Source of the DNA: a virus
Length of the DNA stretch: 31,005 nucleotides
IMG/VR virus record: IMGVR_UViG_3300038660_000290
Coordinates: 1-31,005 of that record
Reading direction: 5' to 3' (one strand)
In this document: positions 269 to 4,571 of the stretch, piece by piece
Layout: every line of letters starts with the position of its first letter
Numbering within the stretch: the stretch's first letter is position 1
Notes under the pieces: model-generated
The model's database searches: none
Seen by the model: only the letters and a program-made list of their open reading frames with translations
What the model was told of the DNA's origin: nothing
Made by a program: the position numbers and the translations under genes

Positions 269-312
269 ACGTTTCACGTACAAAGCGAATCACTCCAATG
301 AAGGAAGTTACC

Positions 313-528
313 ATGTCAGACCAAGACCAAAGCAATGGCGTTCTCGGCCAAGTCGTAAACGCTATCAACAAAGACAAGCGCGAAGCCCTCAAGAAGGAAC
401 TTCGTGGAAAGATCACCGAATACCGCAAGGCGCAGGGCGCGGCGGATGTGATCCTCGACGACATCGTCACCACACTGACGGAAGCCGGTGAGAGCGCCGA
501 CGGCATCGCCGAGCTTCTCAAAAGCTGA
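313..528 (+). CDS. Hypothetical small helical protein (71 aa)
   Basis: The product is a short, highly charged, mostly helical protein with no signal peptide or membrane segment. I do not recognise a family. The start at 313 is preferred over an in-frame ATG at 298 because AAGGAAG (301-307) sits 5 bases upstream of 313 as a good ribosome binding site, and the 298 start would overlap it. The middle is basic (KDKREALKKELRGK) and the C-terminus acidic. The stop codon overlaps the start of the next gene by one base (TGATG), so the two are probably co-translated. It lies just after three tRNA genes; no function can be given. Confidence 0.7.
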   Translation: MSDQDQSNGVLGQVVNAINKDKREALKKELRGKITEYRKAQGAADVILDDIVTTLTEAGESADGIAELLKS

Positions 529-1428: not shown

Positions 1429-1504
1429 GCTTCCGTAGCTCAGTGGACAGAGCGCCGCCCTCCGAAGGCGGGGGTCGCAGGTTCAAATCCTGCCGGGAGC
1501 ACCA
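1429..1504 (+). tRNA. tRNA-Arg (CCG)
   Basis: Acceptor GCTTCCG/CGGGAGC pairs with one G-T. The anticodon stem CCGCC/GGCGG is perfect around CTCCGAA, giving anticodon CCG. The T-arm is GCAGG/CCTGC, the discriminator is A and CCA is encoded at 1502-1504. Confidence 0.95.
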
Positions 1505-1508
1505 ATAT

Positions 1509-1590
1509 ATGGGTGTAGTCTAATTCGCGATGGACGTGAGGCGGTCTCCAAAGCCGCTGGCAAGGGGTTCGATTCCTCACACCCATGCCA
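1509..1590 (+). tRNA. tRNA-Trp (CCA)
   Basis: Acceptor ATGGGTG/CACCCAT is perfect. The anticodon stem GCGGT/GCCGC surrounds CTCCAAA, giving anticodon CCA. G73 fits bacterial tRNA-Trp and CCA is encoded. The D region is a few bases longer than usual. Confidence 0.9.
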
Positions 1591-1606
1591 ATTAGGAGAT
1601 GGCTCA

Positions 1607-1756
1607 ATGTGTCCAGCCGGATGTAACATTGATCCCGATACCCGACTGTGTCGCGCTTGCGGCAGAACACTTCAAGCCCTTATGGACCTGCTACAGGTCC
1701 CTAAAGCCGATCAAGATCACACGGTCAATTGGCTTATCTACCACCACTATCAATGA
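1607..1756 (+). CDS. Four-cysteine miniprotein (49 aa), probable zinc ribbon
   Basis: An ORF of 49 codons between two tRNA genes encodes a protein starting MCPAGC with a second pair LCRACG at residues 15-18. The two cysteine pairs (C2/C6 and C15/C18) would suit binding of one zinc ion. The start at 1607 has AGGAG (1594-1598) 8 bases upstream. An alternative ATG at 1599 in another frame touches the same AGGAG with no spacing and gives a non-descript peptide. The stop codon TGA (1754-1756) overlaps the 5' end of the next tRNA-like gene by two bases. The function is unknown. Confidence 0.6.
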   Translation: MCPAGCNIDPDTRLCRACGRTLQALMDLLQVPKADQDHTVNWLIYHHYQ

Positions 1757-1839
1757 ACCGAGATGTTAAGACTATGACTGGGTCAGCGCCGGGCTTTTAA
1801 TCCGGTTCAAAGGGGTTCGATTCCGCCCTCGGTTCTCCA
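1755..1839 (+). tRNA. Degenerate tRNA-Lys-like gene (TTT)
   Basis: The acceptor arm GAACCGA/TCGGTTC is perfect and followed by T and CCA. The anticodon arm CCGGG/TCCGG with loop CTTTTAA gives anticodon TTT. The D-arm region is about 7 bases too long, and the T-stem around TTCGATT has mismatches, as does its register with the acceptor stem. It may be a decaying or very unusual tRNA. It shares two bases with the stop codon of the upstream miniprotein gene. Confidence 0.6.
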
Positions 1840-1843
1840 ACAC

Positions 1844-1919
1844 GCCGTCGAAGCACATGTGGATGTGCGCCTGCCCGGTAAGCAGGAGGTAGGAGGTTCA
1901 AATCCTCTCGGCGGCACCA
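1844..1919 (+). tRNA. tRNA-Thr (GGT)
   Basis: Acceptor GCCGTCG/CGGCGGC, D-stem GCAC/GTGC, anticodon stem CCTGC/GCAGG with loop CCGGTAA (anticodon GGT), T-arm GAGG/CCTC, A73 and encoded CCA form a complete cloverleaf. Confidence 0.94.
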
Positions 1920-1923
1920 TTAC

Positions 1924-2010
1924 GGAAGGTGATCTCGGCTGGTGCCGGGGACCGGTTGCTAACCGCTTCGCAGGTAACCCTGTGGGGTTCAATTCCTCCG
2001 CCTTCCGCCA
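1924..2010 (+). tRNA. tRNA-Ser (GCT)
   Basis: A class II tRNA with a long variable arm (CAGG/CCTG stem). Acceptor GGAAGGT/GCCTTCC, G73 and encoded CCA are present. The anticodon loop TTGCTAA gives GCT; the anticodon stem has one C-C mismatch. The sequence is clearly related to the tRNA-Ser at 3347. Confidence 0.92.
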
Positions 2011-2025
2011 CATAGGAGAGACCCG

Positions 2026-2343
2026 ATGACCAAGAAAGACAACAAACGTTTTGTCGTACGCCGCATCCGCCGGGCTCTGAACAACGCGGAGACCCCGCCC
2101 ACACAGGCAGGACGCGTTCTGATCCGGTGCGGGTACGGCACCGGCGCTGGACGTAAGCAGATCGACGCCCGCGACATGCGCGATGACGACGAGTACGACT
2201 TTATGTTCCTGTCTGACAGCGCCTGCTGCGGTTTCTGCTACCGGTGCCCATTTGACGTGAGCGCCGACGGCGGCGAGGGGTGGTCTTTTGAGACTGCCAA
2301 TGATATGGAACCAGCGAAACTCGGCGACCTGATCGCCGCCTGA
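2026..2343 (+). CDS. Hypothetical protein (105 aa) with a cysteine cluster
   Basis: A 105-residue soluble protein with a basic N-terminus (KRFVVRRIRRAL), an acidic middle and a cysteine cluster, CCGFCYRC, near residues 67-74 that might bind metal. I do not recognise a family. AGGAG lies 8 bases upstream of the ATG. It opens a three-gene run (2026-3299) with short spacers and good ribosome binding sites, followed by a Pth2-like gene and a YkuK-like gene, so an RNA-related role is possible but unproven. Confidence 0.75.
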   Translation: MTKKDNKRFVVRRIRRALNNAETPPTQAGRVLIRCGYGTGAGRKQIDARDMRDDDEYDFMFLSDSACCGFCYRCPFDVSADGGEGWSFETANDMEPAKLGDLIAA

Positions 2344-2359
2344 CCCGAAAGGACCCGAC

Positions 2360-2773
2360 ATGCCCGACCACCGACTTTACATCATAATGCGCACAGACCT
2401 TGCCTCAATGAATGCAGGCAAGGGAATGGCACAGGCCGCTCACGCGGCCAACGCTTTTGAATTCAACATGGACGCAGACAAGGAAGAACTGACCAAGGAC
2501 ATGCGTCAAGCATGGGCCGACTGGGGAGCTTCCACCATGCAAGGCTTCGGCACCACAATCGTGGTTGCTGCAATGGATGAACAGACGATGACCGAGGCAG
2601 TTGAACAGGCTGTCAAGCTGGGCCTGCCCGGTGAGGTCATCCACGATCCAACCTATCCGGTACGGGACGGGGGAGTAACCCACCTGCTGCCGGTAAACAC
2701 GTGCGCGTACATATTTGTCCCGGTGCCCGAAACTGCTCCGAGCCTTCTCGCACGTATGAGTCTTCGTCCCTGA
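2360..2773 (+). CDS. Pth2-family peptidyl-tRNA hydrolase-like protein
   Basis: Pth2 enzymes cleave the ester bond of peptidyl-tRNAs released by stalled ribosomes and recycle the tRNA; they are unrelated to the usual bacterial Pth1. The 137-residue product has the family layout. A first strand ends in RTDL (11-14). The conserved GK..AQ..HA motif follows at 20-29 (K21, H28). A strand TIVVAAM lies at 66-72. The C-terminal part has RDGGVTHL (102-109) and a final strand ending in VPVP, matching the D-x-G-x-T element and terminal strand of Pth2. AAGGA lies upstream of the ATG. It sits inside a 14-member tRNA array, which fits the call. The length is slightly longer than the usual ~115-120 residues. 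Confidence 0.8.
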   Translation: MPDHRLYIIMRTDLASMNAGKGMAQAAHAANAFEFNMDADKEELTKDMRQAWADWGASTMQGFGTTIVVAAMDEQTMTEAVEQAVKLGLPGEVIHDPTYPVRDGGVTHLLPVNTCAYIFVPVPETAPSLLARMSLRP

Positions 2774-2789
2774 CAGAAAGGAGTCACCC

Positions 2790-3299
2790 ATGTTGAGCGA
2801 GAAGAAGATCAACCAAATCCGTGAAGTCTTAAAGGCGTCTTCGCCGGAGTCTCGTGTCTACATCGGCAACGACTCCTCGCGGCATCGCGATAAGCAAGAC
2901 GTCTGGCACGCAACCTACACCACCGCTGTCGTCATCCACATGATCGACGAGCATGGCATGGGCCACGGCTGCCGGGTCTTCACGGAGACCCAGAAGATGG
3001 TTGACTATGACAACCACAAGAGCAAGCCGTTCACTCGGATGATGCAAGAGTGCTACTTGGCGGTCGAGGCATACCAACAACTCGAAGAGGACTTGTTGGA
3101 GCACGACGTCGAGGTCCACTTGGACATCAACAAGAGCGAGATGCACGGCTCCAACGTCGCACACAACGCGGCGGTTGGATACGCTGTCGGTGTCACAGGC
3201 CGTCCCGTAAAGACGAAGCCAGAAGCGTTCGCGGCATCCTATGTGGCTGACCACGGTGTTCGCGACAAGTTCGCGCGAGAGAACGTGACACTTCACTGA
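2790..3299 (+). CDS. RNase H-fold protein of the YkuK (DUF458) family
   Basis: The 169-residue product matches the YkuK/DUF458 family, which has a predicted RNase H-like fold and unproven nuclease activity. Visible family features are strand one with the first acidic residue (YIGNDSS, D28), a central TTAVVIH strand, an acidic strand HLDINKS (D112) and the C-terminal block KTKPEAFAAS (141-150) followed by AD (153-154). These acidic residues are placed as in RNase H-like metal centres. AAGGAG lies 7 bases before the ATG, only 16 bases after the Pth2-like gene. Probable role: processing or degradation of nucleic acid, perhaps RNA. Confidence 0.8.
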   Translation: MLSEKKINQIREVLKASSPESRVYIGNDSSRHRDKQDVWHATYTTAVVIHMIDEHGMGHGCRVFTETQKMVDYDNHKSKPFTRMMQECYLAVEAYQQLEEDLLEHDVEVHLDINKSEMHGSNVAHNAAVGYAVGVTGRPVKTKPEAFAASYVADHGVRDKFARENVTLH

Positions 3300-3304
3300 A
3301 AAAT

Positions 3305-3337
3305 CTGCACGCCGACATCCCGACCGTTGGCGTGCAG
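3305..3337 (+). terminator. Stem-loop after the YkuK-like gene
   Basis: CTGCACGCC (3305-3313) and GGCGTGCAG (3329-3337) form a perfect 9-bp stem with a 15-base loop, 5 bases after the stop codon. Only an A/T-rich stretch follows rather than a T-run, so it may be a terminator or an RNA-stabilising or processing hairpin before tRNA-Ser. Confidence 0.6.
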
Positions 3338-3346
3338 TGAAAATTT

Positions 3347-3435
3347 GGATGGTGATCCTCGCTGGTGCGGGGGTACGCTTGGAAAGCGGTTCGCCCCCGA
3401 GAGGGGGTGGGGTTCAATTCCTCCGCCATCCGCCA
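3347..3435 (+). tRNA. tRNA-Ser (GGA)
   Basis: Class II tRNA with acceptor GGATGGT/GCCATCC, G73, encoded CCA and a strong variable arm (CCCCC/GGGGG, loop GAGA). The anticodon loop TTGGAAA gives GGA. The outer anticodon stem has two mismatches. It is closely similar to tRNA-Ser(GCT) at 1924. Confidence 0.9.
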
Positions 3436-3477
3436 ATCCATGAATATGCTGCATGGCAGCATTGCAGGCGTTGGGGG

Positions 3478-3505
3478 TTGTGCAGTTGCAGCATTTTGAT
3501 AAGAT
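3478..3505 (+). promoter_or_regulatory. Candidate promoter for the DUF1127 gene
   Basis: TTGTGC (3478-3483) and TAAGAT (3500-3505) are 16 bases apart, about 30 bases upstream of the small gene at 3535. The surrounding region also holds a 7-bp hairpin, ATGCTGC/GCAGCAT (3446-3462). The match to consensus is only partial. Confidence 0.3.
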
Positions 3506-3534
3506 GCTCCTGAAATCAACCAATGGAGTATCCA

Positions 3535-3657
3535 ATGTTTTCTCGATGGTTCGCACGACGCGACACACACAATCAACTTTCCGCAATGACCAATCGCCAG
3601 CTTGCCGACATCGGCATCAACCGTGGTGACATCAAGCGGATCGTATCCGAAATGTAA
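3535..3657 (+). CDS. DUF1127 (YjiS-like) small protein, 40 aa
   Basis: The 40-residue product has the DUF1127 signature: an arginine-rich N-terminus (FSRWFARR) followed by the helix-turn pattern L..MTNRQLADIGINRGDI (from residue 15) ending IVSEM. DUF1127 proteins are common in alphaproteobacteria, and one (CcaF1 of Rhodobacter sphaeroides) has been reported to bind RNA and act in RNA maturation and turnover. GGAG lies about 6 bases upstream of the ATG. The stop codon (3655-3657) abuts the first base of tRNA-Arg at 3658. The gene is not in the size range most gene finders report. The family assignment is from the motif; the role in the phage is inference. Confidence 0.75.
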   Translation: MFSRWFARRDTHNQLSAMTNRQLADIGINRGDIKRIVSEM

Positions 3658-3728
3658 ACCCCCGCCGCTGGGACGGACAAGGTCTTCTAAGCCAAGGGTG
3701 GTGAGTTCGATTCTCACCGGGGGTGCCA
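3658..3728 (+). tRNA. tRNA-Arg (TCT)
   Basis: Acceptor ACCCCCG/CGGGGGT is perfect, T-arm GTGAG/CTCAC is perfect, G73 and CCA are present. The anticodon loop CTTCTAA gives TCT. The anticodon stem is weak (three inner pairs), and the D-arm is short, making a 71-base gene. It begins directly after the stop codon of the DUF1127 gene. Confidence 0.85.
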
Positions 3729-3796: not shown

Positions 3797-3872
3797 GCTG
3801 ATGAGGCCCATGAGGATGAGCAACCGCCTCGTAAGCGGAAGGTAGCAGGTTCGATTCCTGTCATCAGCACCA
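3797..3872 (+). tRNA. tRNA-Thr (CGT)
   Basis: Acceptor GCTGATG/CATCAGC is perfect, anticodon loop CTCGTAA gives CGT with stem CCGC/GCGG, the T-arm GCAGG/CCTGT is good, A73 and encoded CCA are present. Confidence 0.93.
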
Positions 3873-3931
3873 ACTTAATGTCGCCTCTGTTATACATTAA
3901 CCTCGGTTATGTAGCACGAAGCCTACATTAC

Positions 3932-4006
3932 GCCCTGCAAGCATTGACGGTGATGCAATAGTCTTGTAAGCTATGGAACTGAGTTCAAGTCTCAGGTAGG
4001 GCTCCA
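3932..4006 (+). tRNA. tRNA-Thr (TGT)
   Basis: Acceptor GCCCTGC/GTAGGGC, D-stem GCAT/ATGC, anticodon stem ATAGT/GCTAT with loop CTTGTAA (anticodon TGT), and T-stem CTGAG/CTCAG give a full cloverleaf. CCA is encoded at 4004-4006, and its final A is the first base of the start codon of the HNH gene. An inverted repeat ATGTAG/CTACAT precedes it at 3909-3928. Confidence 0.92.
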
Positions 4007-4404
4007 TGATTTGTACAAAATGCGAAGAGAATTTCCATCCGACCCCAACACAGTGCCGGGCGTTGTGTAAGGTATGCACGCGGTCGTACAACAATGCCTA
4101 TTATGCAAAAAATAAAAAACGCCGCGAAGCCGTGTGGAAATCTACACAAAACCGTATATCCAAAATGCTGTTGGAAATTTCGGATTACAAACGTCAGGCT
4201 TCTTGCAAGTTCTGTAAGGAGTCTGAGCCAGTTTGTCTGGACCTACACCACCTCGATCCAACCAATAAAGACGCAACAGTCAGCCGGATGGTGAGCGACA
4301 ATCGCCCAGCACAGCTTATTTGGCGTGAAGTTTCAAAGTGCATTGTTGTGTGCAAAAATTGCCATTCTAAGGTTCATGCAGGATTATTGCATTGCTCCAA
4401 TTAA
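4006..4404 (+). CDS. HNH endonuclease with zinc-binding cysteines
   Basis: The 132-residue product has an N-terminal cysteine set (C3/C6, C17, C21/C24) like a small zinc finger and a C-terminal HNH nuclease domain. That domain has CKFC (67-70), LHHLDP (80-85) with the catalytic-type HH, and CKNCHSKVH (116-124), the final C..CH...H of HNH enzymes. HNH proteins nick or cut DNA and are often homing or packaging enzymes in phages. The start ATG uses the last A of the CCA of tRNA-Thr, and the stop TAA abuts tRNA-Pro, so the gene exactly fills the gap between two tRNAs. It is visibly more A/T-rich than its neighbours, suggesting recent transfer. No good ribosome binding site is seen upstream. Confidence 0.8.
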   Translation: MICTKCEENFHPTPTQCRALCKVCTRSYNNAYYAKNKKRREAVWKSTQNRISKMLLEISDYKRQASCKFCKESEPVCLDLHHLDPTNKDATVSRMVSDNRPAQLIWREVSKCIVVCKNCHSKVHAGLLHCSN

Positions 4405-4476
4405 CAGGGTATGTTCTGGTGGCGGCGTGGGCTTTGGAAGCTTGCTGATCGGGTTCGATCCCCGGTACCCTGACCA
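4405..4476 (+). tRNA. tRNA-Pro (TGG)
   Basis: Acceptor CAGGGTA/TACCCTG, A73 and CCA are present. The C1-G72 pair fits bacterial tRNA-Pro. Anticodon loop TTTGGAA gives TGG; the anticodon stem TGGGC/GCTTG relies on three G-T pairs. The T-arm has loop TTCGATC. Confidence 0.9.
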
Positions 4477-4495
4477 TTATGCGCGTGAGCGCAGA

Positions 4496-4571
4496 CAGTG
4501 TATAGCTCAGTTGGTAGAGTGTCGGTCTGGGAGGCCGAAGGTCGCAGGTTCGAGCCCTGTTACACTGACCA
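4496..4571 (+). tRNA. tRNA-Pro (GGG)
   Basis: Acceptor CAGTGTA/TACACTG, standard D-arm, anticodon stem TCGGT/GCCGA with loop CTGGGAG (anticodon GGG), T-arm, A73 and encoded CCA make a complete tRNA-Pro. It is the last tRNA of the island. Confidence 0.95.

Follow-up and report, generated by a model that had tools for sequence, protein, structure and literature searches.

A YkuK-family RNase H-like gene in phage tRNA arrays and its pairing with a Pth2-type gene in DSS3P8-like roseophages

Why should a phage carry genes for a peptidyl-tRNA hydrolase and a predicted nuclease within its tRNA array? The question is raised by the window analysed here, i.e. the whole 31,005-nt stretch of IMGVR_UViG_3300038660_000290, part of the genome of a DSS3P8-like roseophage whose nearest isolates are CbK-like siphophages of Rhodobacterales (DSS3P8, vB_RpoS-V10, RcXuper, RpAliso, DSS3_MAL1 and MD18). 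A first-pass annotation had described three tightly spaced genes at 2026, 2360 and 2790, followed shortly by a DUF1127 gene and all placed among tRNAs, and had proposed that they could form one system for the maturation, protection or recycling of tRNAs, perhaps as an answer to host defence directed at tRNAs.

Genes and tRNAs of the locus

The gene layout holds exactly: the ORFs 2026-2343, 2360-2773, 2790-3299 and 3523-3657 are confirmed on the + strand, the first three are separated by gaps of 16 bp with an SD-like sequence preceding each, and tRNA genes surround them. All four are real genes, as relatives keep the protein and diverge at third positions. The features of the region are as follows.

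1429..1919, + strand: upstream array with tRNA-Arg(CCG) at 1429-1504, a weak tRNA at 1509-1587 and tRNA-Thr(GGT) at 1844-1919 (ARAGORN/Rfam)
1924..2006, + strand: tRNA-Ser(GCT) by anticodon, class II, left bracket (Rfam tRNA-Sec model, 45.5 bits)
2026..2343, + strand: Cys-cluster protein, 105 aa, with a basic N-terminus and a CC-x2-C-x2-C stretch, without known family
2360..2773, + strand: divergent Pth2-type peptidyl-tRNA hydrolase, 137 aa (PF01981, phrog_1866)
2790..3299, + strand: YkuK/DUF458 RNase H-like protein, 169 aa, predicted metal-dependent nuclease (PF04308, phrog_11311)
3347..3431, + strand: tRNA-Ser(GGA), class II, right bracket (Rfam tRNA-Sec, 45.5 bits; ARAGORN at lowered threshold)
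3523..3657, + strand: DUF1127 small protein, 44 aa (PF06568)
3657..3727, + strand: weak tRNA-like element, possibly tRNA-Arg(TCT) (sequence and fold)
3797..4571, + strand: downstream array with tRNA-Thr(CGT), tRNA-Thr(TGT), tRNA-Pro(TGG) and tRNA-Pro(GGG) (ARAGORN/Rfam)

At default settings ARAGORN reports eight tRNAs, and a sensitive Rfam search adds the tRNA at 1509-1587 together with two tRNA-Ser genes of class II that default ARAGORN misses, one at 1924-2006 and one at 3347-3431. These two genes bracket the Cys/Pth2/YkuK genes and are 74% identical to each other (1924-2006 and 3347-3435). The left element has a class II tRNA fold with an encoded CCA, and its score of 45.5 bits with the Rfam tRNA-Sec model, just under the 47-bit gathering score, reflects the class II shape; a tRNA-Ser(GGA) 3′ of YkuK is also found in three other IMG/VR loci (L196, L206 and L243). 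The idea that an encoded CCA points to 3′ processing particular to phages was rejected, the CCA being near-universal in controls without YkuK too. The element at 3657-3727 abuts the DUF1127 stop codon and is called by ARAGORN only at a lowered threshold and with a different anticodon, and a tRNA-Arg occupies the same place in RcXuper and DSS3P8.

Other small genes lie in the same array. An HNH endonuclease gene of homing type (4006-4404, + strand; phrog_2255, 1e-20) has a start codon that overlaps the end of tRNA-Thr(TGT) and ends where tRNA-Pro(TGG) starts. A small Cys-rich ORF (1607-1756, + strand) resembles DUF1289 below the cut-off (E 2e-4), with a similar-looking small ORF in the arrays of L199 and two other loci, and the ORFs 528-1379 and 298-528 (+ strand), which match no known family, lie between tRNAs upstream of the cassette.

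The Pth2-type, YkuK and DUF1127 proteins

The family identities given to three of the genes were borne out by Pfam, with scores of 42.8 bits for the Pth2-type protein against PF01981 (PTH2; curated cut-off 23), 60.5 bits for YkuK against PF04308 (RNaseH_like; curated cut-off 25, with phrog_11311 at 5e-49) and 47.4 bits for the DUF1127 protein against PF06568 (curated cut-off 23.3). The Pth2-type protein misses the NCBIfam equivalog cut-offs (NF003314, 39.8 versus 126 bits; TIGR00283, 30.7 versus 82 bits), and on these scores it is best classed as a divergent relative rather than a canonical Pth2 equivalog. Its AF2 model (pLDDT 95.4) finds Pth2 structures as best Foldseek matches (1xty, 3erj and 1wn2, E ∼1e-6), and the probability is 1.00 against 1xty, 3erj, 1wn2 and 1q7s, which comprise archaeal and human Pth2. 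Across 44 sequences K21, D103 and T114 are invariant and T107 varies; we take the first three to be the catalytic Lys, Asp and Thr, with T107 aligning with the other active-site Thr. The phage protein shares with archaeal and eukaryotic Pth2 the fold, the GK motif, the Asp and one active-site Thr, but differs in an insert ahead of the presumed catalytic Asp and in its C-terminus. It comes from phages of bacteria, and PTH2 was found in 0 of 10 control bacteria.

The AF2 model of YkuK (pLDDT 90.3) has an RNase H-type alpha/beta topology in its order of strands and helices. Its best structural matches, PhoExo I (Z 9.0), EndoV, Argonaute PIWI, RNase HII and RNase H1, are all nucleases with an RNase H-like fold, at modest Z-scores of which 9.0 is the highest. 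E87, D112 and D154 are invariant among 52 sequences and D28 is present in >90% of them, an order that presumably follows the D-E-D-D site of RNase H1. Both enzymes retain putative catalytic residues within confidently predicted folds. The protein belongs to the same Pfam family as Bacillus subtilis YkuK (DUF458/COG1978), above the curated cut-off. PMC3985635 notes a helix-1 Glu for RNase H1, EndoV, NurA and YkuK and predicts an RNase H-like fold for YkuK, whose standing as a predicted relative of RNase H without an assigned function goes back to 2005 (reference 40 in PMC3985635). No YkuK-like sequence was found among solved structures, and the open-licence papers searched contained no report of nuclease activity for a YkuK-family protein.

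The 44-residue DUF1127 protein shares its domain with the longer CcaF1 of Rhodobacter sphaeroides (71 aa), which, according to the summary in PMC12501420, reportedly assists the maturation of small RNAs whose genes lie immediately downstream in the same operon. The same source describes other DUF1127 proteins that act via protein–protein contact and reports no RNA binding for Salmonella YjiS (PMC12501420). By analogy, the phage protein is possibly RNA-binding like CcaF1.

Distribution of YkuK and Pth2 with respect to tRNA arrays

In the DSS3P8-like clade (sampled by six isolates, ∼15 distinct metagenomic contigs and the window) the gene order is non-random. Pth2 is followed directly by YkuK, in a tRNA array just upstream of the portal gene, in all six isolates, and the pair recurs in the array of every related contig seen. 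It is present in 19 IMG/VR loci, which correspond to ∼15 distinct contigs as some were fetched twice, and wherever the portal is in reach it is the same portal (61–71% identity), indicating a single phage clade. Pth2 and YkuK distances covary within the clade (Mantel r = 0.59), as expected for co-inheritance. Most clade members have DUF1127 just downstream of YkuK, several of them in two copies; in DSS3P8 the genes are gp023 (Pth2), gp024 (YkuK) and gp025/026 (DUF1127). The Cys ORF gave no match in Pfam/family searches, and its homologues are confident only in L207/L209 (56%) and L243 (45%), with similarity in L005 and L214 confined to the N-terminus; it is present in few relatives and not always beside Pth2 (∼3.7 kb upstream of it in L243), and is probably variable cargo. 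GenBank records of RcXuper and RpAliso already label the pair ‘peptidyl tRNA hydrolase’ and ‘ribonuclease’, and a search limited to open-licence literature, by which novelty is unproven, found no published description of the association of Pth2, YkuK and tRNA array.

Outside the clade, relatives were sought by tblastn, which found YkuK in 73 phage records and Pth2 in 40; a single-sequence viral scan with the YkuK query had given no matches, and the YkuK viral scans were therefore alignment-based. A full-genome search of 20 representatives shows that 14 of 14 YkuK carriers have 20–35 tRNAs, a count to be read with the over-representation of tRNA-rich large phages among holders of YkuK or Pth2. 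Some YkuK phages among the 20 also have weak or clear Pth2 matches, never adjacent to YkuK outside the clade. Position was then scored in nine complete genomes as the fraction of the genome whose distance to a tRNA is no greater than that of the gene, complete genomes being used because the array fills the 20-kb IMG/VR loci and leaves the same test weak there (median fraction 0.34). For YkuK the fractions are 0.066 in DLP_6, 0.072 in BUCT-ZZ01, 0.133 in Milchi, 0.277 in RHph_I1_18, 0.072 in KVP40, 0.103 in DSS3P8, 0.044 in X1 and 0.180 in phiKT1024, i.e. 0.04–0.28 over eight phage groups with a Fisher combined p = 0.002, where many of the YkuK phages are probably T4-related and the groups not fully independent. 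Pth2 outside the clade gives fractions of 0.20–0.72 (p = 0.55).

The IMG/VR loci show the same difference between the two genes. In a first set, chosen by similarity to the window, tRNAs are in reach at 76 of 80 YkuK loci, and after dereplication at 90% a tRNA lies within 10 kb in 50 of 51 and within 1 kb in 42, whereas any tRNA lies within 10 kb in only 5 of 46 dereplicated loci with Pth2 only. A second scan seeded with distant YkuK members found tRNAs at 61 of 80 loci (within 1 kb at 49). Those with no tRNA in reach include a 15-member cluster (L313, L328, L364 and 12 similar contigs) and L299 in the second scan and the L122 group in the first. Neither scan placed Pth2 near YkuK at any locus outside the clade. 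The link between YkuK and tRNA arrays across phage groups is, thus, strong but not universal. Of the expectation that the gene set follows tRNA arrays in other phages, the YkuK part stands and the Pth2 part does not; as YkuK tracks arrays, Pth2 does not do so outside the clade and adjacency occurs only there, the four-gene set is an arrangement specific to the DSS3P8-like clade. Its candidacy as a widespread module was rejected, Pth2-YkuK adjacency being confined to contigs that share portal and capsid genes. What remains of the idea of one four-gene system is a conserved Pth2-YkuK cassette in this clade, usually with DUF1127 next to it and with the Cys ORF as a variable element.

At closer range, tRNAs share the strand of YkuK in 1321 of 1322 cases in the first IMG/VR set. 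A tRNA ends ≤60 bp upstream of YkuK in 54 of 90 loci, nearly always on the same strand and with a median spacer of 20 bp, and a tRNA starts ≤60 bp downstream in 31 of 90. From this spacing we infer that release of the YkuK message from a transcript containing tRNAs must often require cleavage.

The array might instead be a site for accessory genes, with Pth2, YkuK, DUF1127 and the Cys ORF as unrelated cargo kept by easy recombination between tRNAs. Many unrelated small genes do occur in arrays, the position of the Cys ORF differs among relatives and the cassette is bracketed by the two similar tRNA-Ser genes, but the proximity of YkuK to tRNAs across many groups, set against its absence for Pth2 searched likewise, makes this rather unlikely. 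Among the protein genes of the sampled arrays, YkuK is also the one found most widely, a count biased by the choice of loci by YkuK.

Action on DNA is a further alternative: tRNA arrays would be spread or rearranged by YkuK working as a recombinase of RNase H fold or as an endonuclease of homing type. In its favour, transposases and resolvases belong to the RNase H superfamily, these arrays do house homing-type genes (HNH and GIY-YIG) and PhoExo I, the closest structural match, is an exonuclease solved with DNA. We nevertheless consider this very improbable, as the isotype of the adjacent tRNA differs among loci without a fixed target, the position of YkuK is stable in the DSS3P8-like clade and YkuK of the Rhizobium phage RHph_I1_18 adjoins RNA-repair rather than recombination genes. 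Homing of YkuK at one particular tRNA site was likewise unsupported, given the varying isotypes.

RNA-related neighbours, proposed role and known systems

In RHph_I1_18 (L016, 166–171 kb) YkuK, a small ORF, a CCA-adding enzyme and DUF1127 are followed by a Thg1-type (tRNA-His guanylyltransferase-type) enzyme, an RNA ligase and a polynucleotide kinase, which together make up a compact tRNA-repair cluster. In L281, a contig binned as a Methyloprofundus MAG that may be a misbinned large phage, an array of 27 tRNAs ends 38 bp before the start of YkuK, and a kinase-phosphatase gene comes next on the opposite strand, with a RecD2 helicase nearby. A DUF2828/DUF7788 protein, which carries an RNA-binding annotation in KVP40, directly neighbours YkuK in KVP40-like phages and lies several kilobases or less from it in DLP_6-like, Milchi-like and cyanophage genomes; examples at L132:4760-6178 and L017:2496-3932 retain 42% identity between distant phages. 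In the DLP_6-like group, 25 loci have a calcineurin-like metallophosphoesterase (L149:1499-2074), a possible RNA end phosphatase, in the vicinity of YkuK.

Our leading reading, held tentatively at close to an even chance, is that YkuK acts on tRNA or the array transcript, most likely in processing or quality control, that Pth2 frees tRNAs and that DUF1127 is an accessory, the three forming a conserved cassette in a polycistronic array. YkuK would be a two-metal RNase H-type nuclease acting on tRNA or on the joint tRNA–mRNA transcript, its likeliest part being to process the phage's own tRNAs or control their quality, with turnover as another possible part. Pth2 would recover tRNAs from peptidyl-tRNA that is released prematurely, and DUF1127 would be an accessory protein, perhaps binding RNA in the manner of CcaF1. 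Pth2 and DUF1127 are then best read as clade-specific additions to YkuK. The role in tRNA maturation, protection or recycling first suggested for the genes fits the gene context, but as a property of the four-gene set it is confined to one clade. A more specific formulation, plausible though short of even, is that phage YkuK is a dedicated tRNA nuclease (processing or host-tRNA-degrading) and a signature gene of arrays, joined with Pth2 and DUF1127 in a roseophage operon for the tRNA life cycle.

An opposite use of the same nuclease would be destruction of host tRNA or RNA during infection, with the array supplying resistant replacements so that nuclease and tRNAs travel together. The 20–35 tRNAs of all 14 tested YkuK isolate phages fit this, as does the published idea by which the acquisition of tRNAs is a response to the loss of host tRNA (Yang et al. 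2021, as relayed in PMC13015707). However, B. subtilis, Thermotoga and Burkholderiales carry YkuK as an ordinary chromosomal gene, a fact that speaks against a nuclease destroying tRNAs indiscriminately. Most YkuK phages also have an RNA ligase of the tRNA-repair type: 12 of 14 encode a T4 Rnl1-type ligase, including all six isolate relatives, where it lies ∼70 kb from the cassette (the window itself being a fragment) and would be expected if these phages meet tRNA damage. We regard host-tRNA destruction as unlikely and prefer a role in processing or quality control, given that YkuK genes are retained by cellular bacteria and that the partners in RHph_I1_18 and L281 are tRNA/RNA end-repair enzymes. 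The recurrent placement of YkuK in phage tRNA arrays provides a concrete substrate hypothesis with many ready test phages, and if YkuK matures phage tRNAs or removes host tRNAs, this would have direct relevance to the question of why tRNAs are carried by phages.

Finally, the locus may be compared with known systems. The Pnkp/Rnl1 tRNA repair of T4 and the translation gene sets of XacN1 and vB_EliS-L02 likewise combine a tRNA array with tRNA enzymes, and XacN1 and vB_EliS-L02 are described as encoding a Pth; the portions of these descriptions that deal with the gene sets do not mention an RNase H-fold array nuclease. In vB_EliS-L02 Pth2 has no annotated tRNA nearby and the genome has no PF04308 gene. 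The context of cellular YkuK genes offered no clear functional partner, and the Burkholderiales homologues are kilobases away from tRNAs. The cellular YkuK homologues examined lie outside tRNA arrays, whereas most phage YkuK genes lie within them.
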